Positions 16,313-33,971 of a DNA stretch of 40,720 bases are shown here, in pieces. How positions within the stretch are numbered: position 1 is the stretch's first letter; each line of letters starts with the position of its first letter. The notes under the pieces are model-generated. The model was not told the origin of the DNA, made no database searches, and was given only the letters and a program-made list of their open reading frames with translations. The stretch is from a virus, in IMG/VR virus record IMGVR_UViG_3300048686_000618, positions 1 through 40,720 of that record; one strand, given 5' to 3'. A program made the translations under genes and the position numbers.

Positions 16313-16636
16313 GTGGACGAACTAATTATTACGGCAATTAATTTAGCAACAAAACCAAACGAGCAACCACAAACACCCACAAAATCAACCACAAAACAAC
16401 TAAGTCCAAGATTTAAAGCACTAGCGCTAGAGTGTGGTTTTCTATTTTGGGATACTGAACCACACGGCCCTGGGCCTGGCTATATCGACTGGAGTTGTGA
16501 CTATACTGAGGAGTTTGAGCAGTACAGTCGTCAATTAGTTGAGTGGACTTGTGAGTTAATGCGTCAAGAAGTTATACGTGACTATGCTTTTGGTGCTAGC
16601 CGACGAACCTACGAGCACTTAGTAGTTCAAGATTAA
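16313..16636 (+). CDS. Hypothetical protein, 107 aa
   Basis: GTG start at 16313. The Thr/Pro/Gln-rich linker (about residues 13-30) is followed by a Trp-rich part with CGFLFWDTEPHGPGPGYIDW. Last gene of the small-gene run; the promoter of the first large RNA begins just after its stop. Confidence 0.62.
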   Translation: MDELIITAINLATKPNEQPQTPTKSTTKQLSPRFKALALECGFLFWDTEPHGPGPGYIDWSCDYTEEFEQYSRQLVEWTCELMRQEVIRDYAFGASRRTYEHLVVQD

Positions 16637-16646
16637 AAATTTTAAC

Positions 16647-16675
16647 TTGAATGAGTTGGTCAAACCCTGTATAAT
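16647..16675 (+). promoter_or_regulatory. Promoter of large RNA A
   Basis: TTGAAT at 16647-16652, 17-bp spacer, TATAAT at 16670-16675 followed by ATTATT, preceded by an A/T-rich tract. Confidence 0.85.
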
Positions 16676-16681
16676 ATTATT

Positions 16682-17558
16682 TATAGTCAGTGAGGAAAGC
16701 AAAGCGATTAGTCGCCAACGGCTTTAAATGACATTTTGCCACACTAAATAAAATTATTTTAACATACAAAATGTGCATTGTAGCGACCACTGACTGTAAC
16801 AACAAAAAACTTTACCATACCCAATGGTAGAGCGCGATAGGACTAGCGTTAGGTGTCCTAGGTTAGTCACACAGACCTCCCAGTAGGCCATACATCTACT
16901 GTGGTAAAACGGTGACGGGGTTAGACATATACCTCGAATGTGTACGGACAGAGTAACTGCTCAGGTTGGGGCTGTTGGGGAACAGTAGCTAACTAAATCC
17001 TCTGATGAGCCACTGCAATGTGGCGAAACTCTAAACACACTAGCAAGTCGCTATGGCCCTTCAACTGCCATACCTGCTTAGGTTTAGGGTAAGGATAATA
17101 AGGCCCGATAAGCTTGCTGTCACATTTCCCTAGTGGCTAGGCGGCCAATGTCGAGGCGGGTGAAAGCCCCGTCAACTAAAATATGCGAGTGATGGTGGAC
17201 TACGCATAAGGTTATCTGAGACCTGCGGACCGTCGTCCAAGAGTAAAAAGACAATATGATCCAGTTTAGGGACTGGCATCATATTCAAGCACACTAGAGA
17301 TAAGCAGGAACAGGTCTAGACACTGGTCGCCTCGTCAAGTGTGTTTGAATATGGTTAGATAAGGGGTAGTATGTACGAGGCGTCTAACCTCCGAGGACTG
17401 GGATTCCCCTGCTAGCAACACTAGCGCCATACAAAAGCTGATTAGGGTTCGATACTGACGATGCGGCCGATGCAGACAGTAGCGCCCCAAAGGTGAGGAA
17501 TAGTAATCAGCTTTTGTATGGTTTTTCTTTGGCAGCCACTTGGCTGCCGTTTTCTTTT
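16682..17558 (+). ncRNA. Large structured non-coding RNA A, about 877 nt
   Basis: No reading frame of note runs through this stretch, yet it has its own promoter and terminator and many exact helices. The 5' domain pairs AGTCAGTG (16685-16692) with CACTGACT (16788-16795), nesting GTCGC/GCGAC and ACATTTTG/CAAAATGT. A 15-bp long-range helix joins 17281-17295 to 17338-17352, and CCAGT/ACTGG sits at 17262-17278. A 17-bp helix joins 17428-17444 to 17504-17520 near the 3' end. The size, the phage context and the nearby tRNAs recall the giant GOLLD and ROOL RNAs, but I cannot confirm membership. It could be a new class. Confidence 0.8.
17531..17558 (+). terminator. Terminator of large RNA A
   Basis: GGCAGCC (17531-17537) pairs with GGCTGCC (17542-17548), followed by GTTTTCTTTT. 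The 17-bp helix just upstream also ends in a T-run (17522-17530). Confidence 0.82.
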
Positions 17559-17567
17559 GGAGACAAC

Positions 17568-17798
17568 ATGTACAGATGTACAATAGTTAACAGTTTAACT
17601 GACGACATTGTTGATCAATTTGAGGTTGACTACCTTTACGAAGCTAGACTAAAATTTGCTGACTGGTACAGCGACGGTTACCTATGCTTTGTCTACGACG
17701 AGTTTGGCGATAGTGTAGACGTTACCAGCGATATTGATAGCAGCGTGTACGAGCCTAGTGAGTACGATGAGTGGAGGAGCTATGACCCCGATTGTTAA
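17568..17798 (+). CDS. Hypothetical acidic protein, 76 aa
   Basis: The start at ATG 17568 follows GGAGA, right after the RNA A terminator; upstream in-frame codons are inside the RNA. Very acidic, with a central FADWYSDGYLCFVYDEFGDS. No promoter of its own is visible, so it needs read-through from RNA A. Function unknown. Confidence 0.62.
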   Translation: MYRCTIVNSLTDDIVDQFEVDYLYEARLKFADWYSDGYLCFVYDEFGDSVDVTSDIDSSVYEPSEYDEWRSYDPDC

Positions 17799-18036
17799 AC
17801 TTGCACACAAACATGGTGCTACACACAAGGCGAATCTAGGTGTTTACCAGTTTTATGAACATGAATTGACCAACTATACTAATGCTGTACTTGAACAAGC
17901 ATACCAGGTATTAGATGATCTACGCGGATATTCAGGCGTTGGCGCTGCGGGCAATCCACTCGATACTGAAAGCTGGAACGCTGCACTAAAAGCAGCCCAG
18001 CAAGTTTTGTTGGAGCGCACCCATGGCACTGTATAA
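17782..18036 (+). CDS. Hypothetical protein, 84 aa
   Basis: The ATG at 17782 has a strong GGAGGAG site. The product (MTPIVKLAHKHGATHKANLG...) is helical, with EQAYQVLDDLRGYSGVG. Overlaps both neighbours. No family recognised. Confidence 0.65.
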   Translation: MTPIVKLAHKHGATHKANLGVYQFYEHELTNYTNAVLEQAYQVLDDLRGYSGVGAAGNPLDTESWNAALKAAQQVLLERTHGTV

Positions 18037-18310
18037 ACATCTATGCCCCGACTGGGACTTTAAACTAATAGACGACGAGTGTGAGGAGTTTGACGCCTGT
18101 ACTTGTAGTATAGATAGTGAGGGTCAAACTGCAAAGTTTACCAGTGGCACTAGGGTACTAGTACTGCCAAATGGTATGGTGGCTACAGTCGTCAAGCAAT
18201 GGTTACACTATGACGGATTGGAGAGCTTTTGGGGCAATGTACTAGTAGAGTATGATGATGGTATACGTGGCACCTGTAATAACTGGCAACTTAAATATTT
18301 AGAAAAATGA
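18023..18310 (+). CDS. Hypothetical protein, 95 aa, SH3/Tudor-like segment
   Basis: The C-terminal half (SGTRVLVLPNGMVATVVKQW, then NVLVEYDDGIRGTCNNWQLK) reads like a small beta-barrel of SH3/KOW type, after a Cys-containing acidic N-terminus (CEEFDACTCS). Overlaps the next gene by 4 bases. The role is unknown. Confidence 0.62.
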   Translation: MALYKHLCPDWDFKLIDDECEEFDACTCSIDSEGQTAKFTSGTRVLVLPNGMVATVVKQWLHYDGLESFWGNVLVEYDDGIRGTCNNWQLKYLEK

Positions 18311-18975
18311 AAGTAACAGTACACAATGTTAATCCAATACCACTACTAAAAGTAGATTTGGAGTCGGAAGAAAAATTATTAGTAGAAGAAGTAGAAGCAA
18401 TTAAATCTGTAACCGATTTGACGTTACGTATTGGCGAAACTCCTGGTTCAACATCTTTACAATTAAGTAGTTCTACAACAATAATTGAAGATTTAAATTT
18501 AACTAGACTGGGCTTGCTTTTTGATAAATATGTAAAAGTTTATACTAAAGATGTAATTGGTATAAAAAATAATTTTTCACGTACCCATAGCTGGATAACA
18601 ATAACAAGAAAAGAAAAGTATCATCCTGGTCATTGGCATCCAAATGCAATGATTTCTGCTGTTTTATATTTTAATGAAAATCTAACACAAGAAGAAATGA
18701 GTTTACTAAAAATAAGGTGTCCAGGAACAGATGCCATATTTAATAAATTTAAATTTCTTCTAGAGTGTGAAAAAGATACTATTTATAATTATAAAAACTA
18801 TGATCTATACCCTGTTTCCAATAGAATGTTTATTTTTCCTGCTGATTTAGACCATGGTACAAGTATAAGTACTAGTTCTATTAATAGATATGCGCTTGCT
18901 TGTAACTATTTTTTAAATGATACTTTGAATCCGGCCTCTTCCTTAGAAAAATTAACTGTATTTAGTGCAGGTTAA
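18307..18975 (+). CDS. 2OG-Fe(II) oxygenase-like protein
   Basis: A 222-aa protein with a dioxygenase core: KYHPGHWHPNAMISAVLYFN (about residues 102-121, HxH metal segment), then FIFPADLDHGTSI (about 178-190, distal His) and INRYALACNYF with Arg. The order matches the TIGR02466-like phage oxygenases seen also at 1301. The gene is A/T-rich relative to its neighbours and overlaps the upstream gene by 4 bases. The next gene is a glycosyltransferase-like ORF, so glycan or virion modification is possible. Confidence 0.78.
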   Translation: MKVTVHNVNPIPLLKVDLESEEKLLVEEVEAIKSVTDLTLRIGETPGSTSLQLSSSTTIIEDLNLTRLGLLFDKYVKVYTKDVIGIKNNFSRTHSWITITRKEKYHPGHWHPNAMISAVLYFNENLTQEEMSLLKIRCPGTDAIFNKFKFLLECEKDTIYNYKNYDLYPVSNRMFIFPADLDHGTSISTSSINRYALACNYFLNDTLNPASSLEKLTVFSAG

Positions 18976-19012
18976 ATGAATAAATTACAAAATTTTCCGC
19001 CAGTTTATTACA

Positions 19013-19810
19013 TTGCAAGATAGTACGGCGAGACAGCAGCAGCTAGAAGCGCAACTGCAAAACCTGGCTGTTAGTTTTACCAAAATAATTGCATTTGATG
19101 GCAGACAACATGATTTTACTAAAGATAAATATGTTATAGGTAAACTAGTTAAACACATAGACAGCGGACACCTAGCAACTGTAATTAGTCACTTAAAAGC
19201 TATTGAACAGTGGTATTATACCAGTAATAGCCCTGTAGCAATATTTTTAGAAGATGATATGAATTTAGAGCTTTGTAAATATTGGCAATTTACATGGTCT
19301 GAGCTATTTGCTAGGCTCGATAAATATCACTGGAATGTAGTTCAATTAAGTTTGTTACGTGGACAAGATGCCGAAGTTAGACTATCAGAAGAAGATATGT
19401 GCTTTAGACGTCGCAGTTTTTATAACTGGTCTGTGGGAGCATATATGCTTACCAGAAATTATGCTAAACGGCTACTAGATACATATGTTTCTGGTAAAGA
19501 GTACGCCTTAACTGTCGAGCGCTGGCATGACTATTTTCCATATGTAGAAAATATCATATACATAGCAGCTAGACCCCATGAGTTTACAATACCACTGTTT
19601 ACGGAAAATATTAATTTTACTAGTACTTTTTATCCACAATTTATTAACACTAAACGTAAATTAGGTCAAATTGAAAGCAGTCAATTTGTTGAACAGTGGT
19701 GGCAAACTAGTGGCAAAGATATTAGCGTAGATGATTTTATGCAACTTAAAGAGGCTAGATATTGGCAAGAAACTGGAACTCCCAGTGGCTGGGAATTTAT
19801 ACTAAAATAG
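19013..19810 (+). CDS. GT25-like glycosyltransferase with probable 5' frameshift
   Basis: The main frame is 265 aa from TTG 19013 and resembles family 25 (LPS-type) glycosyltransferases: QLQNLAVSFTKIIAFDGRQ (about residues 16-34), VISHLKAIEQWYY (about 58-70), VAIFLEDDMNLE with the DxD-like acidic pair (about 75-86) and FYNWSVGAYMLTRNYAKRLL (about 134-153). TTG has no ribosome site. In another frame, ATG 18976 reads MNKLQNFPPVYYIAR then stop; joined to DSTARQQQLEAQL it gives the normal family N-terminus. So two bases may be missing near 19018-19021, or the frames are joined by frameshifting. It is functional only if that is resolved. Confidence 0.7.
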   Translation: MQDSTARQQQLEAQLQNLAVSFTKIIAFDGRQHDFTKDKYVIGKLVKHIDSGHLATVISHLKAIEQWYYTSNSPVAIFLEDDMNLELCKYWQFTWSELFARLDKYHWNVVQLSLLRGQDAEVRLSEEDMCFRRRSFYNWSVGAYMLTRNYAKRLLDTYVSGKEYALTVERWHDYFPYVENIIYIAARPHEFTIPLFTENINFTSTFYPQFINTKRKLGQIESSQFVEQWWQTSGKDISVDDFMQLKEARYWQETGTPSGWEFILK

Positions 19811-19821
19811 GTGGTCAAACG

Positions 19822-20022
19822 GTGAAATTTATAGGACATCAACTAACACAAACAGTTTTTCTAGAAGCTGAGGACGGACGGAGTTATCGTACCGATCCTC
19901 TAGGCAAATACTGGGAGTGTTTATACGGCGAAAGCTGGGAAAGTATATGGGGCTCAGAGGAAACGCGGTGTAAGGCTGCCTACATGGCGTACCTAAGCAC
20001 GCATCAACTACAAGACAGCTAA
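19822..20022 (+). CDS. Hypothetical protein, 66 aa
   Basis: GTG start at 19822 with AGGTGG upstream, 12 bases after the glycosyltransferase stop. The product (MKFIGHQLTQTVFLEAEDGR...) has beta strands then a Trp/Cys-containing helix (YWECLYGESWESIWGSEETR). No family recognised. Confidence 0.62.
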   Translation: MKFIGHQLTQTVFLEAEDGRSYRTDPLGKYWECLYGESWESIWGSEETRCKAAYMAYLSTHQLQDS

Positions 20023-20025
20023 ATC

Positions 20026-20430
20026 ATGTTAGAATGTTTAATCATAGGCGACAGCATTGCACTAGGTGTTGCACAGTTTCGTAGCGGCTGTGAGTTACGT
20101 GCTAATGTAGGCATTAGTACTAGTGGTTGGCTAAAACGCTATGGTCACCTCAACCTAGCAGCTAAAATTGCCATTATTAGCCTAGGTGTTAATGATGGTG
20201 ATGCAGCGAATACCTATGGCAAATTGCGTGAACTTAGAGCCAAGATTACTAGTAAGCAGGTTTACTGGATTGTGCCCAGTGAAGCAATATACAAACACCT
20301 ATACCAAGACGTAAATACTATTGCGGGCATGTTTGGTGATCAAGTAATACAAACTAACAAGTATCAGAGGGATGGTGTACATCCTACTACAACTGGCTAT
20401 AAGGAATTAGCGGAGCAAACACGATGGTAG
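20026..20430 (+). CDS. SGNH/GDSL-type hydrolase, 134 aa
   Basis: It shows the SGNH blocks: IIGDSIALG (about residues 6-14, Ser nucleophile), a Gly in block II, LGVNDGD (about 53-59, Asn) and DGVHPTTTGY (about 116-125, Asp and His). At 134 aa it is a minimal version. Such esterases remove acyl groups from sugars, peptidoglycan or lipids; here, near a glycosyltransferase-like gene, polysaccharide deacetylation is plausible. Confidence 0.82.
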   Translation: MLECLIIGDSIALGVAQFRSGCELRANVGISTSGWLKRYGHLNLAAKIAIISLGVNDGDAANTYGKLRELRAKITSKQVYWIVPSEAIYKHLYQDVNTIAGMFGDQVIQTNKYQRDGVHPTTTGYKELAEQTRW

Positions 20431-20513
20431 ATAACAACAATCACGGCTATAAGCGCACTATAATTTTTGTGCTATTAGTACTTTCACTCATATTAGCCAT
20501 GCTGTTCGGCTAA
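20424..20513 (+). CDS. Tiny membrane protein, 29 aa
   Basis: The start overlaps the SGNH stop by 7 bases. A polar N-terminus is followed by one hydrophobic helix (TIIFVLLVLSLILAMLFG). Plausible small membrane peptide; nothing specific recognised. Confidence 0.5.
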   Translation: MVDNNNHGYKRTIIFVLLVLSLILAMLFG

Positions 20514-20528
20514 ACAGAAAATATTCTC

Positions 20529-20557
20529 TTGAACGGCGTGCCAAACCTGTGTATAAT
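20529..20557 (+). promoter_or_regulatory. Promoter for the 20582 operon
   Basis: TTGAAC at 20529-20534, 17-bp spacer, TATAAT at 20552-20557 with AAATATTC upstream. Transcription would start near 20564, with a GAGGAGC ribosome site just after. Confidence 0.85.
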
Positions 20558-20581
20558 ATTTATATAATGTGAGGAGCGGCA

Positions 20582-20791
20582 ATGAAAGATTACGTTGTGT
20601 TATATAGGTTCGAGGGTCAGAATCCCCTGGACGCGCCACTGCCATTTGTGTGTCAGGCAGAAGATACAATTCATGTAGAAGAGCAGATGATGAGCTATGA
20701 TGAATCTGCTGAGATTGTTTGGGTGTATTGTGGACATAGTGTAGATCTAGCCTTTGACGAGTACTACAGTGTTTATAATTATTATGAATAA
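20582..20791 (+). CDS. Hypothetical acidic protein, 69 aa
   Basis: GAGGAGC ribosome site and a strong promoter directly upstream. The product (MKDYVVLYRFEGQNPLDAPL...) is beta/alpha with an acidic, Tyr-rich end. Likely well expressed. No family recognised. Confidence 0.68.
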   Translation: MKDYVVLYRFEGQNPLDAPLPFVCQAEDTIHVEEQMMSYDESAEIVWVYCGHSVDLAFDEYYSVYNYYE

Positions 20792-20990
20792 AAATGTTGA
20801 ACAGCTGTGGAATAAGGCAGCAGAACTAACAGCAGCATTTCCTAGTGGTAATGGTAATAGCTGGCAAACACAAGTACAATTTATCAACAAGCTGGTACAG
20901 CTTACGGTACTAGAAGTTATTGCGGTAGCGCCGCACATAGAAGGCATTGACCACATCAAACAACACTTTGGAGTCTATAATGACCATTGA
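20784..20990 (+). CDS. Hypothetical protein, 68 aa
   Basis: ATG 20784 overlaps the previous gene by 8 bases. Helical and soluble, with WQTQVQFINKLVQLTVLEVI in the centre. Function unknown. Confidence 0.62.
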   Translation: MNKNVEQLWNKAAELTAAFPSGNGNSWQTQVQFINKLVQLTVLEVIAVAPHIEGIDHIKQHFGVYNDH

Positions 20991-21180
20991 CGTCTATAAT
21001 CGTGTGGCTAAATTTGCAGAACTTAAGGCTTACTGCCACCATGCTAGTGATACGGATTTTATGGAAGTGTGTGAGTGGAGTAACGGTGAGGGGTTTGATG
21101 TTACCATTAACAACCGTATATATCAGTTCACATACGGCCAGTGGGATTGCCTTCAAGTTTTGGTAAACTATAAACCATAG
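20980..21180 (+). CDS. Hypothetical protein, 66 aa
   Basis: ATG 20980 with GGAG ten bases upstream. Product MTIDVYNRVAKFAELKAYCH..., followed by beta segments and a Trp/Cys-containing C-terminus. Last gene before the structured leader at 21227. Function unknown. Confidence 0.62.
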   Translation: MTIDVYNRVAKFAELKAYCHHASDTDFMEVCEWSNGEGFDVTINNRIYQFTYGQWDCLQVLVNYKP

Positions 21181-21191
21181 AAAATATTCAC

Positions 21192-21220
21192 TTGATTTGT
21201 CTGACAGAAGTCTGTATAAT
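21192..21220 (+). promoter_or_regulatory. Promoter of the structured leader RNA
   Basis: TTGATT at 21192-21197, 17-bp spacer, TATAAT at 21215-21220 followed by ATTATT; AAAATATTCA lies upstream, as at several other phage promoters here. Confidence 0.85.
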
Positions 21221-21226
21221 ATTATT

Positions 21227-21470
21227 ATTGTGTTAGAGAACAATCGCCAGAGAGTACAACCAACTAATATTAAGGCTAAGCTATGACTTAGCAGCGGTAC
21301 TCCCTCTAACCCTATTTGTTTAGTGTTATCAAGGTATCGCTATAGGACGCTATAGCTATTCGGGTTCAATCAGCCGGAGACGAATCCTGAAATAACTGCA
21401 TCGGCTATGACTGGTTAGCTACCATATGTCTAAATTTGCACGATAGCACTAAATAAATAGTTAAAGGAGA
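21227..21470 (+). ncRNA. Structured 5' leader RNA, about 245 nt
   Basis: There is no reading frame between the promoter and the ATG at 21477. Visible helices: GTTAGAG with CTCTAAC (enclosing AGAGTAC/GTACTC and GCTAAG/CTTAGC), GCTATAG/CTATAGC closing a GACG loop (about 21339-21356), ATTCG/CGAAT and AGCCG/CGGCT, which interlock as a possible pseudoknot. The layout is like a riboswitch or other cis-regulatory leader for the small gene at 21477, or a stand-alone RNA. Its ligand or class is unknown. Confidence 0.65.
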
Positions 21471-21476
21471 GCATAG

Positions 21477-21653
21477 ATGATTACTTATGGTGAATTGCTT
21501 AAGAGGTTGCAAGGTTTTACCAAGGAACAGCTTGATTGTACAGTAGTAGTCCTAGATCGTGCCTATGATGAGTATAACGACATGACTACCATCTACTTTA
21601 GCGGTGTGGAGAACGATGTACTAGACGAAGACCACCCCATCCTTGTAATCTAA
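21477..21653 (+). CDS. Small acidic protein behind the structured leader, 58 aa
   Basis: Starts after a good AAAGGAGA site. Product MITYGELLKRLQGFTKEQLD, then CTVVVLDRAYDEYNDMTTIY; a small alpha/beta acidic protein. It is the only gene between the leader RNA (21227-21470) and the hairpin element (21654-21753), so its expression is probably RNA-controlled. Function unknown. Confidence 0.68.
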   Translation: MITYGELLKRLQGFTKEQLDCTVVVLDRAYDEYNDMTTIYFSGVENDVLDEDHPILVI

Positions 21654-21753
21654 AAGCTGTTAAGGGTTCGGCACACCAACCTGCTAGCCGTGTGGTGTGA
21701 TGCCCAAAACGCCAACTCAAAAGTTGGCTAAAGTGCGGAATAGTTAACAGCTT
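21654..21753 (+). ncRNA. 100-nt structured element sharing a motif with RNA A
   Basis: AAGCTGTTAA (21654-21663) pairs with TTAACAGCTT (21744-21753). Inside are GGGTTCG, a hairpin CACACCA/TGGTGTG (21672-21699), GCCCAAA, a second hairpin GCCAACT/AGTTGGC (21711-21728) and GTGCGGAATAG. The 3' end of RNA A (17434-17514) has the same order: AAAGCTG, GGGTTCG, hairpin, GCGCCCCAAA, then GTGAGGAATAG and the closing strand. It begins right after the upstream stop codon, so it may be a 3' UTR element or separate RNA. Confidence 0.7.
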
Positions 21754-21766
21754 AAAAAATCTTTAC

Positions 21767-21795
21767 TTGAACTGTAGTGCCCAACAGTGTATAAT
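21767..21795 (+). promoter_or_regulatory. Promoter for the 21822 gene
   Basis: TTGAAC at 21767-21772, 17-bp spacer, TATAAT at 21790-21795 followed by ATTATTATT. A GGGGAG ribosome site is just downstream. Confidence 0.85.
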
Positions 21796-21821
21796 ATTAT
21801 TATTGATTGGGGAGACAACAT

Positions 21822-22016
21822 ATGTCAATGATGACACTAGAAGTTGAGGTTGGCAGAGGTCTAGTAGAACTAACTGGCAGTAACTGTAAATATTGGCAGG
21901 GCTGTGGACTGCCAGACTATGAAGGCCCAATTGCTGGGCTACCACCAGAGGTAATCAAAACACTACTTGAGCTAGGGGCAATCAAAAATATTCACTTGAA
22001 CAAAGAGCTTCCTTAG
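21822..22016 (+). CDS. Small hypothetical protein, 64 aa
   Basis: ATG 21822 is preceded by GGGGAG at good spacing. Product MSMMTLEVEVGRGLVELTGS, then CKYWQGCGLPDYEGPIAGLP; the last 20 codons include the -35 region of the next promoter. Function unknown. Confidence 0.62.
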   Translation: MSMMTLEVEVGRGLVELTGSNCKYWQGCGLPDYEGPIAGLPPEVIKTLLELGAIKNIHLNKELP

Positions 22017-22024
22017 TGTATAAT
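21996..22024 (+). promoter_or_regulatory. Promoter of giant RNA D
   Basis: TTGAAC at 21996-22001, 17-bp spacer, TATAAT at 22019-22024. The -35 lies inside the preceding coding sequence and the -10 just after its stop. Confidence 0.85.
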
Positions 22025-22030
22025 ATTTAT

Positions 22031-23181
22031 ATAAATTGAGAGTTTAGGGCGAACCAGGGCCAACATTAATCTGTTGGATAAGTTCTTAATCTGTGTTGAA
22101 ACTACCCTTAACACAGACCCAACCAACCTATTTGTATAACTACGGAAACACACAGACCCTATGCTGTGCCGTGGTTATACAAATGTGTTGATGCCCAGTT
22201 AGCTAGTAGTAACTCCTAGAGTACAAAGACTAGCTGGCCTATATTACGCATTGTTGGAAAGGGCAACCAATGTAAAAAATGCCACAACGGTGTTGAAATC
22301 TGTGGCTGGCAAGTAGGCCCATAAAGCTGAAAAGACGCGGAACGGATACACATGGTGGAAGCTGCTAACCACCCTAAAGGAACCAGCCCCCTAGTTTGTT
22401 AACAGTTATAGGGGTTAACCAAAAGACCTGTTACCGTAGCATATACGTAGTTATGCGTTATCTAACACGAGAGTTAGAAACCAGTGGAGCCGATTCTGTT
22501 GCAAAACATGGCGGCCAACCACTACACCGTCCCTGAGCTATTCCTCTTGCCAACTAAGATTGGACAATGAACTCAGGGTTATATGCCACAAGCCGTAGTT
22601 AACTGGAGCTGTGGGGTAGATAGTCGTTAACAGTGCCAGTAGCTCAAACGTGCTCAGAGCAAAGGTGTGCTAGAAATAAGCCCTCTAGCCTGGCAAATAG
22701 TTCAAACACAGTGCAGAGTGAACATTAGCCTACAGCTAGCTGCCAGCAACTAAAAACAGTGCGTTGCTAAGGTTTGAAGCCGACCCAATCTAGCGATTTA
22801 GGGTCGGGGTTTAGCAGTAACCGAAAACTGCTTGTGCCCAACTGGGCCAGTGCGCCAACAATAAATGGCAAGGCTATAACCACAGTGCCTGGTTAGTCGC
22901 GTTCTTATAATTGTTAATAGCCAGCAACGTCTGGTAATCTAGGTGCAAATCCTAGACGCGCTAGTTGCCCATATCTTGGCTGGAACCCAAGACCGAACAG
23001 CAACTAAGAATCACAAGATTCGGGACATCAACTGCACCGACTTACGCCAATTCGCAATCGGCTAGAGTGTAGACAAAAGATGCTGGTGGTCGTAGTAGCA
23101 CTACATAAAAGTAATCCACTTCCTAAATCGTCGACGTGCTAAAGCCCGCCTGCTCTGAAGCAGAGCGGGCTTTAGTTTTTT
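22031..23181 (+). ncRNA. Giant structured non-coding RNA D, about 1150 nt
   Basis: The stretch has a consensus promoter, a strong terminator and no protein-like frame. Clear helices: 22131-22145 with 22169-22183 (15 bp), GCCACA/TGTGGC, TCTAAC/GTTAGA, CCGACCC/GGGTCGG (22780-22807), AGCAGT/ACTGCT, and GAATC/GATTC near 23009-23022. A three-way junction at 22894-22963 carries a T-loop-like hairpin TCTAGG-TGCAAAT-CCTAGA. The size and complexity are in the range of GOLLD, ROOL and OLE, and phage location near tRNA genes is typical of the first two. Identity cannot be settled by eye. Confidence 0.8.
23139..23181 (+). terminator. Terminator of giant RNA D
   Basis: CTAAAGCCCGC (23139-23149) pairs perfectly with GCGGGCTTTAG (23165-23175), followed by a run of T. 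Confidence 0.92.
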
Positions 23182-23205
23182 ATATTTTTAGTTTAGAGGA
23201 ACTCT

Positions 23206-24699
23206 ATGACGCTAAAAATTCATGGTACAGATAATGTACAACCAAATACAATATCTGAAGCTAGTATAGTTGCCGGAATTACAGGAGCAGGTGCAACTGT
23301 AATAAGTAGTGTATATGTTACCGATAATTTGTATAATAATACTGGTGCTAATGCAGTTGATACAACCGGTGGATATATTAAGCTATTAGGTATTAATTTT
23401 TATCCTGGTAGTACTTTGGTTATTGGCTCTGTTAGTGCAATAAGTTTAACCTATGTATCTACTACTGAATTACGTGCTCAGCTGCCAGCACAAGCTTCTG
23501 GAGAATATACTCTATATTTAACTAATCCTAATGGTAGTTTATATATAAAACCAAATGGAGTAAGTTATAGCGGAGCAGTACAATGGATTACTGGCACAAT
23601 ATTACCAAATCAGCCACTTGGTACAGTTAATACATCAATTCAACTAGAAGCTACTGGTGATGGAGCTATAACATATACTTTGCAAGCCGGTAGTAGCTTA
23701 CCAGGAACTCTAATATTAAATAGTAGTACTGGGCTATTAACTGGAAATCCTCCTGCGGTGTTAACAGGTACTAATTTTAGTTTTACTGTAATTGCTACAG
23801 ATATAGACCTTCAAAGTGCTGCACGAACATTTACACTGCCTGTAGCAGCCAATGCATTACCTGGAAGACTACTGTTAGTAGGTGGTGGTGGTGGTGGTGG
23901 TAAACAAACAGGTGGTGGCGCTGGCGGATTTATCGATTTAACTAATCAAATAAAAATAGGAATACCTTATTCGATAACTGTTGGTTTAGGTGGAAGTGGT
24001 TCTGGTGTTGAAAGTACAGCAGGCGGAGCAGGCATTAATACTGCTGGTGGTGATACTAGTTTTGGAATTAACTATACTAATGAAGGTATAATTGCTTTAG
24101 GTGGTGGTAGAGGTGGTACTGGAACATATGGACCAAACTTTGATTTATATATAAATGGTGGTAGTGGAGGTCCAGGTAACGCAGGCCAAATAGGCTTAGG
24201 ATTGCAACCTACAAGTGCTAGTGGTGGTTTTGGAAATAATAGTGGACAGGGTGGTGGAGGTGGTGCTGGTGAAGCTGGCGGCACTGATGGTAATAATCAA
24301 GGCGGAGATGGTCTTGTTAGTGATATTACTGGTGTTACAACATATTATGCTGGTGGAGGCGGTAGATACGGTACTACTGGTGGATTAGGTGGTGGAGGTA
24401 GTGGATATACAATAGATTTATATGGCGGAGGAGTTGGCGGCAGTCCTGGTGTAGCAAATACTGGCGGCGGCGGTGGTGGCGGGCAATGGCCTTTATCAAA
24501 AAATGTACCTTTTACAGGACAGCCTGCAGCACCAGTTAATGGTAGAGCTGGAGGTAGCGGTATATTAGTCCTAAAAGTACCAAATACATATACGGCCACA
24601 TTTAGTGCTGGAACAACGTATACAACTAATACAAGTGTAGCTGGATATAACATATATAGTGTTACTGCAGCTATTAATCAAACTGTAACATTTTCATAA
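23206..24699 (+). CDS. Glycine-rich tail-fibre/adhesin protein 1
   Basis: A 497-aa protein. It has a short N-terminal anchor (MTLKIHGTDNVQPNTISEAS), then an IPT/TIG-like Ig domain (about residues 35-120, GGYIKLLGINFYPGSTLVIG), a putative-Ig segment (about 125-215, LPGTLILNSSTGLLTGNP) and a Gly-rich region (about 225-450) of repeated GGG and GGAG blocks. The C-terminus ends in a short beta domain (ILVLKVPNTYTATFSAG). Gly-rich phage fibres of this kind form trimeric or adhesive tips that bind the host surface. It shares the anchor with the next gene, so the two are paralogous fibres. RBS is GAGGAAC. Confidence 0.78.
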   Translation: MTLKIHGTDNVQPNTISEASIVAGITGAGATVISSVYVTDNLYNNTGANAVDTTGGYIKLLGINFYPGSTLVIGSVSAISLTYVSTTELRAQLPAQASGEYTLYLTNPNGSLYIKPNGVSYSGAVQWITGTILPNQPLGTVNTSIQLEATGDGAITYTLQAGSSLPGTLILNSSTGLLTGNPPAVLTGTNFSFTVIATDIDLQSAARTFTLPVAANALPGRLLLVGGGGGGGKQTGGGAGGFIDLTNQIKIGIPYSITVGLGGSGSGVESTAGGAGINTAGGDTSFGINYTNEGIIALGGGRGGTGTYGPNFDLYINGGSGGPGNAGQIGLGLQPTSASGGFGNNSGQGGGGGAGEAGGTDGNNQGGDGLVSDITGVTTYYAGGGGRYGTTGGLGGGGSGYTIDLYGGGVGGSPGVANTGGGGGGGQWPLSKNVPFTGQPAAPVNGRAGGSGILVLKVPNTYTATFSAGTTYTTNTSVAGYNIYSVTAAINQTVTFS

Positions 24700-28935: not shown

Positions 28936-29247
28936 ATGAAATATACTAAAGAACTTACGGACAAAATAGTAAACGACTACCAAGCCAATATTGCTGTTAG
29001 CAAAATTGCCGAGGAGCTTAGGGTGCCAGAGCGCAGCATAGTTGCCAAGCTGAGTAGCATGGGCATCTACCAAAAGCAACGCTACCTCAATAAGCGCGGT
29101 GAGGTGCCGCGTAAAAAGTTTGAGATGATTGAAAGCTTAGCCACACTCTTAGGGGTGCCTAGCGATCAGCTAGAAAGTTTAGAAAAAGTCAACAAAAATG
29201 TACTTAAATTGCTTGAAACCAGGTTGAGTGACCCTAAACCGCAATAA
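28936..29247 (+). CDS. HTH-type DNA-binding protein (paralog 2 of 4)
   Basis: A 103-aa relative of the protein at 12378: KELTDKIVNDYQANIAVSKI, then AEELRVPERSIVAKLSSMGI and VPSDQLESLEKVNKNVLKLL. The recognition helix differs (VPERSI versus GKSTRSI), so its target site probably differs. A TTTAGGGTCG box overlaps the region just upstream (28917-28926) and another lies in its 3' end (29229-29238), which suggests self-regulation. It ends at a strong terminator. Confidence 0.75.
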   Translation: MKYTKELTDKIVNDYQANIAVSKIAEELRVPERSIVAKLSSMGIYQKQRYLNKRGEVPRKKFEMIESLATLLGVPSDQLESLEKVNKNVLKLLETRLSDPKPQ

Positions 29248-29260
29248 TTACACTTAATCA

Positions 29261-29288
29261 GCCCAGCTTTATGCTGGGTTTTTTATTG
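29261..29288 (+). terminator. Rho-independent terminator after HTH paralog 2
   Basis: GCCCAGC pairs with GCTGGG around a short T-rich loop, followed by TTTTTT. Confidence 0.88.
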
Positions 29289-29333
29289 CCCACACTATTG
29301 GGTTTGCTCTGATTTAGGGTCAGAAAAATTCTC

Positions 29334-29363
29334 TTGACAGGGTAGTTGATCAGCCACTATAAT
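29334..29363 (+). promoter_or_regulatory. Promoter with TTTAGGGTCA box, module 1
   Basis: TTGACA at 29334-29339, 18-bp spacer, TATAAT at 29358-29363, then TTGGCGC. A TTTAGGGTCA box begins 21 bp upstream of the -35. No gene follows; the transcript (about 29370 on) would be a short RNA containing GCAAG/CTTGC and CTAAA/TTTAG hairpins. Confidence 0.75.
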
Positions 29364-29517
29364 ATTGGCGCAAGAGCACTAAATTTTTTAGCTTGATTGC
29401 TTGCCCACTGGCGCAACACCACAATTTCTGACCCTAAACTGTACTAGTTTGGGTGCCGGCCAAGAAATTTTGTGCTGTTGGTGTGGTTTGCTGCGGTTTA
29501 GGGTCAAAAAAATTTAC

Positions 29518-29547
29518 TTGACGGTGATGTTGATTTGCCGCTATAAT
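29518..29547 (+). promoter_or_regulatory. Promoter with TTTAGGGTCA box, module 2
   Basis: TTGACG at 29518-29523, 18-bp spacer, TATAAT at 29542-29547, then TTGGCGC. Same design as module 1, with the TTTAGGGTCA box again 21 bp before the -35. Confidence 0.75.
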
Positions 29548-29754
29548 GTTGGCGCAAGACCAATAAATTTTTGCACTTGATAGTGTTTGCACTGGCGCAG
29601 AATAACCACTAAATATTTTGGGGAGTTTTTCCACTGGCGCCGGTGGGTGCACCCACCATCATCATTTATAGAATTTATAGCGACATCGTGCTAGGTTATA
29701 TAATTTAGTGCGGTACGGTTATGGATTATATAATTTGTAGCGGCTTAGGGTCAA

Positions 29755-29828
29755 CCGACCAGCGGTCGATACGGGCCGACCAGCGGCGGCATTTTCGCTT
29801 GACACGCGGGCCAAAATTATAGTATAAT
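29755..29828 (+). promoter_or_regulatory. Composite promoter element, copy 1
   Basis: CCGACCAGCGGT at 29755-29766 and CCGACCAGCGGC at 29776-29787 (21 bp apart), TTGACA at 29799-29804, 18-bp spacer, TATAAT at 29823-29828 inside a palindrome with arms CCAAAATTATA and TATAATTTTGG. Confidence 0.82.
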
Positions 29829-29902
29829 TTTGGCGCAATATCGCTACAAATTTTATAACAGTATAATAACCATAACTTGACCCAATTACACCCAAAACCG
29901 GC

Positions 29903-29976
29903 CTGACCAGCGGCAGCCAGCGGCAGATGAGTGGCAGCAAAAACGCTTGACACGCGTGCAATTTTAATGATAAAAT
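29903..29976 (+). promoter_or_regulatory. Composite promoter element, copy 2
   Basis: CTGACCAGCGGC at 29903-29914, a degenerate second box at 29924-29935, TTGACA at 29947-29952, 18-bp spacer, TAAAAT at 29971-29976, then TTGGCGCC. Arms CAATTTTA and TAAAATTG flank the -10. Confidence 0.72.
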
Positions 29977-30027
29977 TGGCGCCAGGTCGCTATAAATTAT
30001 ATAATTTATAACCGTTATGGCGAAAAT

Positions 30028-30055
30028 AACGGCCCGCTTTGGGCCGTTATGGTTT
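30028..30055. terminator. Bidirectional terminator
   Basis: AACGGCCC pairs with GGGCCGTT around GCTTT. The plus strand is followed by GGTTTTT, the minus strand by ATTTTCG. It ends the leftward 30063 gene and the rightward copy-2 promoter RNA. Confidence 0.8.
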
Positions 30056-30062
30056 TTAGAAC

Positions 30063-30371
30063 CTAGTCAACTAGGTCATACTCAACAAGTGCATCCACAA
30101 TGTGGACGGGCAACTTTACAGTTTCCATATCACCCCAGCGCTTGAGTGCGACAAGCTCACCGACCTTACGGTCAAATTTATCGTGACTGGCACACCAAGC
30201 AAAGCTCACGTTATAAAATTTAGTATTATCACGGCCGATGGTAGGTTCACAAACCATGGTCATGCCAGGAAAAAGAGTATTAGTCGGTTTTTTAGAATGA
30301 ACAAAACCGCCCATGTCACGCAGGACGCCTTTAAGCTCTTTACGCAGGTTTTTTTCTTGAGGGGTAAGCAT
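30063..30371 (-). CDS. Hypothetical protein, 102 aa
   Basis: Leftward gene downstream of HTH paralog 3. The product (MLTPQEKNLRKELKGVLRDM...) has a basic helical start and a beta-rich centre with MTMVCEPTIGRDNTKFYNVS. No family recognised. Separated from the HTH gene by a GGGGC-TTCG-GCCCC hairpin that could attenuate its expression. Confidence 0.65.
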   Translation of the reverse strand: MLTPQEKNLRKELKGVLRDMGGFVHSKKPTNTLFPGMTMVCEPTIGRDNTKFYNVSFAWCASHDKFDRKVGELVALKRWGDMETVKLPVHIVDALVEYDLVD

Positions 30372-30425: not shown

Positions 30426-30752
30426 TTATAACGGCTTGCTGTTAGCAAGTGCGTCGAAAATCGCCTTGAGAGCGGATTTGTTCGCCTTGGTAAGCGATTC
30501 AATGTCATTTTCTGACAGGCGAAGAATCGCGCCGATAGCATCGGCCGTTACATCTTTTTTAACAGGCTTTTCGCCAGTTTTCGAGACGTACTGCTTTGCA
30601 ACGTAAACTTTCTCGCGCGAAAGTTTCGCTACAACAGAACGAACGGTTTTACCCATAGCCGAAGCAATTGCTTCGACCGCGACACCTGCCTGATAATCTG
30701 CTATAATTTTAGCAGTCTGCTCGGCGGTGTAATTAACGGCTTTTTCTGCCAT
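30426..30752 (-). CDS. HTH-type DNA-binding protein (paralog 3 of 4)
   Basis: A 108-aa protein closest to paralog 4 at 34004: YTAEQTAKIIADYQAGVAVE, then AIASAMGKTVRSVVAKLSRE and VYVAKQY, and a C-terminal SENDIESLTKANKSALKAIF. First gene of its leftward unit and expressed from the palindrome-type promoter at 30810-30858. Being the first gene it may control its own promoter and others. Confidence 0.78.
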   Translation of the reverse strand: MAEKAVNYTAEQTAKIIADYQAGVAVEAIASAMGKTVRSVVAKLSREKVYVAKQYVSKTGEKPVKKDVTADAIGAILRLSENDIESLTKANKSALKAIFDALANSKPL

Positions 30753-30809
30753 GATTACAACTCCTAGAACTGTCTTGGGCTTGACCCTATGTCTCCCGCA
30801 ACAAAATCA

Positions 30810-30858
30810 ATTATACACGGGTTTCAGTGGCCAATTGTCGTCCAGATGACAATTGGCC
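30810..30858 (-). promoter_or_regulatory. Leftward palindrome-type promoter for HTH paralog 3
   Basis: The minus-strand -10 is TATAAT (30815-30810). At the -35 position, after a 17-bp spacer, is ACAATT, the arm of a palindrome GGCCAATTGTC/GACAATTGGCC (30829-30858). The lack of TTGACA and the palindrome position suggest an activator-dependent promoter. Confidence 0.7.
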
Positions 30859-30892
30859 TACCATCTGTCAGGTGGATCAGCGGCAAAATCAC

Positions 30893-30967
30893 CCGACCAG
30901 CGGCAGACAGCATCCGACGAACGGTAGCCCCTGGGGCTTGACACGCGCAACAAAATTATGATATAAT
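30893..30967 (+). promoter_or_regulatory. Composite promoter element, copy 3
   Basis: CCGACCAGCGGC at 30893-30904, CCGACGAACGGT at 30914-30925 (21 bp apart), TTGACA at 30938-30943, 18-bp spacer, TATAAT at 30962-30967 inside a perfect 30-bp A/T palindrome (30952-30981), then GGCGCC. Confidence 0.82.
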
Positions 30968-31029
30968 TATATCATAATTTTGGCGCCATCGCTATAAATT
31001 CTATAATTGGTAGCGATATAGTAAAAAAT

Positions 31030-31050
31030 ATAGCGGCTTTGCGCCGCTAT
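31030..31050. terminator. Bidirectional terminator
   Basis: ATAGCGGC pairs with GCCGCTAT around TTTGC. The minus strand is followed by ATTTTTTAC, the plus strand by ACGTTTT. It separates the leftward SprT gene from the rightward copy-3 promoter. Confidence 0.82.
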
Positions 31051-31055
31051 ACGTT

Positions 31056-31445
31056 TTATAACGTCCTCACAATTGGATCGCTTTTATTTATATAATATTG
31101 GTGGAAGGCCTCCGGCGGCAAGCCATACTCTACCATGAGTTTACGCCAAGCGGGGCCATGCCACATATCCGTTGGATCCTCGCCAAACATTATATAATCT
31201 GCAACATGAATTAGCTCATGCGGTACAATTACGCAAAGCATCTCAGTTTTATAACGGTTAAAGAATTTGCTAGCAAATTCTACCTCATGCACCTCGCAAT
31301 GGGCTAGGCCCGCAGTGCGATACATGCGATTGCTAATTCTAACCTTTGGTACGTTATGCTTTTCTAGTTGTGGCCACAATTCTTGCATAGCAGTCCAGTG
31401 CAGGGTAACAGCGGCTGTTACAACTTTTATCAACGAATCGGCCAT
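31056..31445 (-). CDS. SprT-like zinc metallopeptidase-domain protein
   Basis: A 129-aa protein. The metal site is plain: VPHELIHVADYI (about residues 74-85, HExxH-like as HELIH) and a third His in MWHGPAWRKLMVEYG (about 94-108). SprT/Spartan-type domains cut DNA-linked proteins in larger relatives; many phage versions are uncharacterised. The C-terminal zinc ribbon of longer family members is absent. Last gene of its leftward unit, overlapping the SemiSWEET gene by 16 bases. Confidence 0.82.
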   Translation of the reverse strand: MADSLIKVVTAAVTLHWTAMQELWPQLEKHNVPKVRISNRMYRTAGLAHCEVHEVEFASKFFNRYKTEMLCVIVPHELIHVADYIMFGEDPTDMWHGPAWRKLMVEYGLPPEAFHQYYINKSDPIVRTL

Positions 31446-33443: not shown

Positions 33444-33473
33444 AACCATGTCCTTTGCATTAACCATGTGCTA

Positions 33474-33519
33474 AGTATACTCAAAATTCCCTGGTCAATT
33501 GTCGCCTAGGCGACAATTG
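33474..33519 (-). promoter_or_regulatory. Leftward palindrome-type promoter for the HAD unit
   Basis: The minus -10 is TATACT (33479-33474), spacer 17 bp. The -35 position ACAATT is one arm of a perfect 24-bp palindrome (33496-33519, ends CAATTGTCG and CGACAATTG). Confidence 0.75.
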
Positions 33520-33555
33520 CCTACCGCCCATACCCTGCTGCCTGCCATACATCAG

Positions 33556-33629
33556 CCGACCAACGGCAGTCTACGCCCGACAAACGGCGGTGGCAGGGCT
33601 TGACACGGCTGCAAATTATATGCTATAAT
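33556..33629 (+). promoter_or_regulatory. Composite promoter element, copy 5
   Basis: CCGACCAACGGC at 33556-33567, CCGACAAACGGC at 33577-33588 (21 bp apart), TTGACA at 33600-33605, 18-bp spacer, TATAAT at 33624-33629 with arms CAAATTATA and TATAATTTG, then GGCGCC. Confidence 0.82.
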
Positions 33630-33639
33630 TTGGCGCCAT

Positions 33640-33669
33640 CGCTATAAAAGTTATAGCGGTATATTTTTT
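33640..33669 (+). terminator. Promoter-proximal terminator of copy 5
   Basis: CGCTATAA pairs with TTATAGCG around AAG, followed by TTTTTT. The resulting RNA would be only about 35 nt. Confidence 0.72.
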
Positions 33670-33675
33670 GTATGA

Positions 33676-33701
33676 GCTACTGTTTCACGTGAAACAGTAG
33701 C
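33676..33701. other. parS-like site 1, perfect
   Basis: The core TGTTTCACGTGAAACA (33681-33696) is the textbook bacterial parS sequence, and the palindrome continues perfectly to 26 bp. It lies in a non-coding gap just after the copy-5 terminator. There is no T-run on either strand directly adjoining it, so it is not simply a terminator. Confidence 0.82.
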
Positions 33702-33758
33702 GTGCAAGGAATGTTATCATAAACATAACATACAGCCACAAGGCTAAGGTAAGTGTTC

Positions 33759-33971
33759 TCATTCTTGCATCGATCCAGTAAGTGTATTGTAATGCTTATT
33801 ATAGCTAGGCCCAGTGAGCTTGCGCCCAAGGATTCTATTTTTTATAAGCCACATAAAACCCTTGTAGTCGGTAGGCACAATAAAAAACTGTAACGGTTCT
33901 TCAACGGCAATCTCAGCACGACGGCTAAATGCTATAATCTTTGGATCAGTGGCAAGTGCTACATTTTTCAT
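33759..33971 (-). CDS. Small basic hypothetical protein, 70 aa
   Basis: Follows HTH paralog 4. The product (MKNVALATDPKIIAFSRRAE...) contains FFIVPTDYKGFMWLIKNRIL and ends basic. Soluble. No family recognised. Preceded by the 33981-34000 hairpin. Confidence 0.6.
   Translation of the reverse strand: MKNVALATDPKIIAFSRRAEIAVEEPLQFFIVPTDYKGFMWLIKNRILGRKLTGPSYNKHYNTLTGSMQE

Follow-up and report, generated by a model that had tools for sequence, protein, structure and literature searches.

The RNA A locus and the unit of the 21477 gene

The stretch of DNA analysed here, referred to as the window, comprises 40,720 nucleotides (a virus record of 40.7 kb) from a freshwater phage with many tRNA genes, whose terminase has relatives in large Vibrio phages (about 110-120 kb) and in others, all at less than 60% identity. 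The window encodes RNA A, a large structured non-coding RNA that ends in the first copy of the motif studied here:

16647-16675 (+): promoter of RNA A, sigma70-type, TTGAAT-17-TATAAT, recognised by its sequence pattern
16676-17525 (+): RNA A, structured non-coding RNA of ~850 nt, with copy 1 as its last domain
17427-17521 (+): motif copy 1, whole module, between the RNA A body and the terminator
17427-17444 (+): copy 1, 5' strand of the outer stem P1, pairing with 17504-17521 in 18 perfect base pairs
17445-17451 (+): copy 1, GGGUUCG, identical in all four distinct copies
17453-17457 (+): copy 1, 5' strand of the inner hairpin P2 (UACUG), with its partner strand at 17477-17481
17464-17469 (+): copy 1, loop palindrome CGGCCG, its GGCC wholly within the loop
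17493-17503 (+): copy 1, invariant GUGNGGAAUAG strand
17504-17521 (+): copy 1, 3' strand of P1
17530-17549 (+): intrinsic terminator of RNA A, directly 3' of copy 1

RNA A is indeed a structured RNA. It is 83-87% identical in two related viral contigs, L088 and L093, and its RNAalifold consensus contains 245 pairs, 33 of them with compensatory changes on both sides. The core at 17152-17273 is also present in Limnohabitans phage DC31, within an unannotated stretch; the DC31 paper mentions RNA once, in another context. No Rfam family matched RNA A in the window at the gathering score or at E <= 10 over 16600-23300, nor did any match the relatives at the gathering score. By its size, covarying structure and pattern-based promoter and terminator, RNA A falls within the loosely defined kind of large ornate phage RNA. 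A weak type III hammerhead match at 16980-17034 scored 28 bits, short of the 48.5-bit cut-off, and had no convincing stem I, and we do not call it a ribozyme. The match reflects an element of the form CUGAUGA-hairpin-CGAAA, conserved with compensating changes in its hairpin, which lies within RNA A (17002-17028) and also occurs in L021, L028, L047, L064, L088 and L093, in several large RNAs of related phages that otherwise differ from one another. Directly upstream of this element in L028 stands a tRNA gene.

The second copy of the motif closes a transcription unit with a protein-coding gene:

21192-21220 (+): promoter of the unit that ends in copy 2
21235-21476 (+): structured leader RNA of the unit, ~97% identical in L088 and L093, with a distant form in L085
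21477-21653 (+): gene of 58 amino acids, PHROG 1057, with copy 2 beginning right after its stop codon
21654-21753 (+): motif copy 2, whole module, between the gene's stop and the next promoter
21654-21663 (+): copy 2, 5' strand of P1, forming 10 base pairs with 21744-21753
21672-21677 (+): copy 2, 5' strand of P2 (CACACC), pairing with GGUGUG at 21694-21699
21683-21688 (+): copy 2, loop palindrome GCUAGC
21711-21728 (+): extra hairpin GCCAAC/GUUGGC (strands 21711-21716 and 21723-21728), absent from copy 1
21733-21743 (+): copy 2, invariant GUGNGGAAUAG strand
21767-21795 (+): promoter of the following unit, 13 nt beyond copy 2

No terminator was found between the 21477 gene and the promoter at 21767-21795. 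The leader RNA (~240 nt) is better conserved among the relatives than RNA A; it belongs to no Rfam family, and its exact core AACTGCATCGGCTATGACTGG is common to a different phage, L085 (5505-5645). In L088, L093 and a third contig, L092, other genes stand after the same leader and copy 2 is absent. Homologues of the 58-aa gene, tried as a route to relatives of copy 2, were in no case close enough.

Homology, distribution and pairing of the motif

An earlier note on this DNA had described the motif at both sites with a common order of elements, and we find exactly this: each copy runs from a P1 strand through GGGTTCG, a hairpin, GCCC(C)AAA and GTGNGGAATAG to the closing P1 strand. A sequence-only profile built from the copy-1 sequences of the window, L088 and L093, with copy 2 left out, retrieved copy 2 from the window at E = 4.9e-7; the only other significant matches in the window were copy 1 itself and, on the reverse strand, its stem, which is nearly palindromic. 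With a structure-aware model of the same three sequences, copy 2 was the next-ranked site (E = 1.3e-3). The two copies are homologous, and their likeness is not a matter of chance.

A pattern scan of viral contigs returned 17 stretches, three of which (in L088, L092 and L093) had the closing stem; the other 14 were chance matches that lacked the full motif, as was every new match of a relaxed scan. All three contigs hold RNA A, in which copy 1 keeps its position ahead of the terminator. Since L092 equals L093 across copy 1, they contribute two distinct sequences, in which the outer stem and the core are unchanged and the inner hairpin differs yet is still paired. Copy 2 was not found in these three contigs and was seen only in the window. 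Further copies were absent from genome contigs (pattern scan) and from the relaxed viral-contig scans, and the covariance model retrieved nothing new from 48 related virus records plus phage DC31 or from 82 loci. The expectation that the motif would recur in related genomes thus held for copy 1, and no homologue of copy 2 was found. The inner hairpin of copy 2 is closest to that of L093 copy 1 (60% identity) and least like that of window copy 1 (34%). The probable origin of copy 2 is therefore an L093-like allele, from which it was either acquired or split off, rather than a recent duplication of its neighbour.

Both copies were more stable than all 200 of their dinucleotide shuffles (z = -5.0 for copy 1 and -3.7 for copy 2), and 96.8% of cells pair over the four distinct sequences (both window copies, L088 and L093). 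Five pairs changed on both sides, compared with a shuffle mean of 1.3 and with none in every slid register. One of the five falls outside the true stem of copy 2, leaving four solid changes, two each in the outer stem and the inner hairpin. Preservation of pairing between hairpins of different sequence, as the earlier note had claimed, is therefore real, although the events are few. Its broader proposal of a selected, conserved RNA structure common to two transcripts draws support from the both-side changes, the covariance search and the profile match alike.

The core letters GGGUUCG, CCC and GUGNGGAAUAG are invariant in all four copies, despite a change of about half of the hairpin that lies between them. 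Two mutually exclusive core folds lie within a few kcal/mol of each other: one pairs GUUC with GAAU, and the other pairs GGG-UU-CG with YG-CCC, forming a GGG/CCC helix that CG/YG extends across a UU bulge. The former is favoured in copy 1 and GGG/CCC in copy 2; as the core letters do not vary, covariation cannot choose between them. No cleavage signature was found in the module.

Palindromes in the inner hairpin and at other RNA 3' ends

The most telling clue, to our minds, is one that the earlier note did not mention. In all four distinct copies a 6-nt palindrome is centred in the apical region of P2, and it takes three different sequences, CGGCCG, UCCGGA and GCUAGC:

Copy 1: GACGATG-CGGCCG-ATGCAGAC
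L088: GGCATT-TCCGGA-CTTGTAC
L093: AGCATA-GCTAGC-CATGTAG
Copy 2: CCAACCT-GCTAGC-CGTGTGG

Copy 2 and L093 share GCUAGC by descent, which leaves three independent alleles. For these, composition shuffles gave p = 4.5e-5 for a centred palindrome and 0.013 for one at any position, values that are optimistic in that the palindromes were noticed after looking. Across the 918 columns of the RNA A alignment, this is the sole place at which every sequence has a palindrome of at least 6 nt and the palindromes differ. The predicted monomer hairpins of L088 and copy 2 leave most of the palindrome unpaired; in that of copy 1 the GGCC is mostly unpaired and the first two bases of the palindrome are mostly paired; in the predicted minimum of L093 it is partly hidden.

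The loop thus varies in sequence and stays self-complementary, as seen in three independent alleles only. Bases that are both adjacent and complementary cannot pair with each other in a single chain, which makes a symmetric intermolecular kissing loop the natural reading. A loop that switches while staying self-complementary also speaks for RNA-RNA self-pairing rather than for a protein site there, since such a site would be expected to keep its sequence. Inspection of RNA A by eye revealed no second site that changes along with the palindrome.

Palindromes also occur at the 3' ends of other large RNAs of this phage group, the nearest of which lies downstream in the window:

about 22036-23180: RNA B, second large structured RNA, with a promoter at 21996-22024 and a terminator
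23129-23136 (+): 3'-end palindrome of RNA B, CGUCGACG, with different palindromes in its place in relatives

RNA B has no Rfam match. Its relatives in L088, L093 and L076 have gained and lost domains between them, and hairpins show compensating changes (CTAAC-ACGAGA-GTTAG versus CTTACTACGAGAAGTAAG). In the 3' linker ahead of the terminator stands CGTCGACG, AACAGCTGTT, ACATGT or ACTTGTACAAGT, and large RNAs of more distant phages carry GGCTGTTGCAACAGCC (L028) and GCTGTTGCAACAGC (L047) at the same place. Fisher tests, applied post hoc, gave p = 1e-4 for RNA B alone and p = 1.6e-7 for nine sequences together. Three of the nine 3' ends were without a significant palindrome (none in L021 and L064, a non-significant one in L061), and the 3' end of L093 RNA B likewise had no significant palindrome. 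Part of these 3'-end palindromes could be short hairpins instead. From these sequences, self-complementarity at the 3' end seems to recur in the phage group without being universal.

The same phages contain another family of large structured RNAs, at about 2438-1300 in L028, at about 3120-2000 in L064, and in L047 and L021. After each of these RNAs a small gene on the other strand resembles the 'SIVAKLS' genes of the window. A dispersed sequence, CTGACCCTAAA / TTTAGGGTCAG, occurs many times in L021, L028, L047 and L064, both between genes and inside the large RNAs, and is also found at 29247-30070 of the window. In this last region and at 30750-31060 and 33467-33760 the window has several promoter-like intergenic stretches that are 66-78% identical to one another and lie near small SIVAKLS gene copies.

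Candidate functions of the module

We give roughly an even chance to the idea that the module is a 3'-terminal RNA self-association module, our hesitation reflecting the three independent alleles and the post hoc recognition of the palindromes. Stem P1 and the invariant core (GGGUUCG ... GCCC(C)AAA ... GUGNGGAAUAG) would position P2, which would present the self-complementary loop; the P2 loops of two molecules of the same transcript would then pair as a symmetric kissing loop. RNA A might in this way be held as a dimer or within a larger homo-oligomer, as OLE, GOLLD and ROOL are, with the loop as one bridge. The loop sequence would be free to drift while it remained palindromic, each allele pairing with itself. 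Because CGGCCG of copy 1 does not match GCUAGC of copy 2, the mRNA of the 21477 gene would self-associate separately from RNA A, and dimerisation at its 3' end could, speculatively, protect or sequester the message. Self-association gives no reason why the module should sit on an mRNA, and we count this against it.

It was not until 2025 that cryo-EM resolved RNA-only homo-oligomers such as those of GOLLD, ROOL and OLE, which have as yet no settled function. In loop L9.3 of OLE the palindrome switches between GGCC, GAUC and AGCU at adjacent nucleotides, and the switching palindromes of OLE L9.3 and GOLLD L21a have been read, with cryo-EM, as symmetric intermolecular kissing loops (PMC12286853). 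The module resembles OLE L9.3 in that a loop palindrome switches and self-complementarity is kept (PMC12286853); however, OLE occurs mainly in extremophilic bacteria, whereas the phage module has a 6-nt palindrome and is 3'-terminal. GOLLD, a non-coding RNA of phages and prophages that exceeds 800 nt in many members and is often found near tRNA genes, forms a homo-oligomer held by kissing loops, some of them self-interacting in the 3' region, and ROOL, a phage-encoded large ornate RNA, forms an RNA-only cage with a symmetric kissing loop, L18 (PMC12286853). RNA A is likewise large and resides in a tRNA-rich phage; unlike GOLLD, it is known here from sequence alone and its module also follows a protein-coding gene. 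Covariance models of GOLLD, ROOL and OLE matched neither the window (at the gathering score, or at E <= 10 over 16600-23300) nor the relatives (at the gathering score). By this Rfam test the module stands outside the three families, yet by analogy it may work like them. A further parallel is the dimer initiation site of retroviruses, a hairpin loop whose 6-nt palindrome varies between isolates, remains self-complementary and drives the formation of RNA dimers. It belongs to an unrelated type of virus and RNA, and we know of no counterpart there to the core that surrounds the palindrome in the module.

The invariant core could be a site of protein binding or of tertiary contact. A reading in which a phage or host protein recognises GGGUUCG/CCC/GUGNGGAAUAG, and so marks or regulates both transcripts with the hairpin as a scaffold, would account for core letters that resisted change around a diverging hairpin and for the presence of the module on two different transcripts. 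It offers no candidate protein, meets a loop that is not sequence-specific, and leaves the switching palindromes unexplained; as the whole account we find it doubtful, although a protein site in the core would be compatible with self-association as a second function.

We regard it as unlikely, if still a live rival, that the module serves chiefly as a 3'-end stabiliser blocking 3'-5' exonucleases, or as an aid to termination, for RNA A and the 21477 mRNA. Such a role suits the position of both copies as the last element of their units, before the terminator at 17530-17549 and before the promoter at 21767-21795, and the U-run that follows the stem of copy 1. The terminator after copy 1 is nevertheless a separate element, and the stem of copy 2 is followed by neither a U-run nor an intrinsic terminator, so that neither copy qualifies as an intrinsic terminator itself. 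A simple hairpin would moreover suffice for this purpose, leaving the invariant core and the palindromes unexplained. Stabilisation of the 3' end and self-association are compatible and not mutually exclusive. Finally, it is quite improbable that copy 2 is a functionless recombination relic, which entered an intergenic gap as a copy of the module in a related phage's RNA A: its absence from L088, L092 and L093 and its closeness to L093 copy 1 would fit, but a relic would decay, and copy 2 has kept its pairing and core letters despite strong divergence and has gained a hairpin.

Three points are new here: a large RNA that has no Rfam family, a compact 3' module whose palindromes switch, and the occurrence of this module after a protein-coding gene. 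Returning to self-association, we also consider a wider scheme, less likely than not, in which the phage group makes several large non-coding RNAs, unrelated to one another, that each carry at the 3' end a self-complementary element quick to switch and that assemble only with themselves, one such module having moved onto a phage mRNA that also self-associates. This would amount to a modular, orthogonal code of RNA assembly. If self-association is true, a small (~95 nt), transferable module on a new large RNA and on an mRNA would provide a minimal handle for probing it, and would suggest that many large phage RNAs outside Rfam use the same principle.
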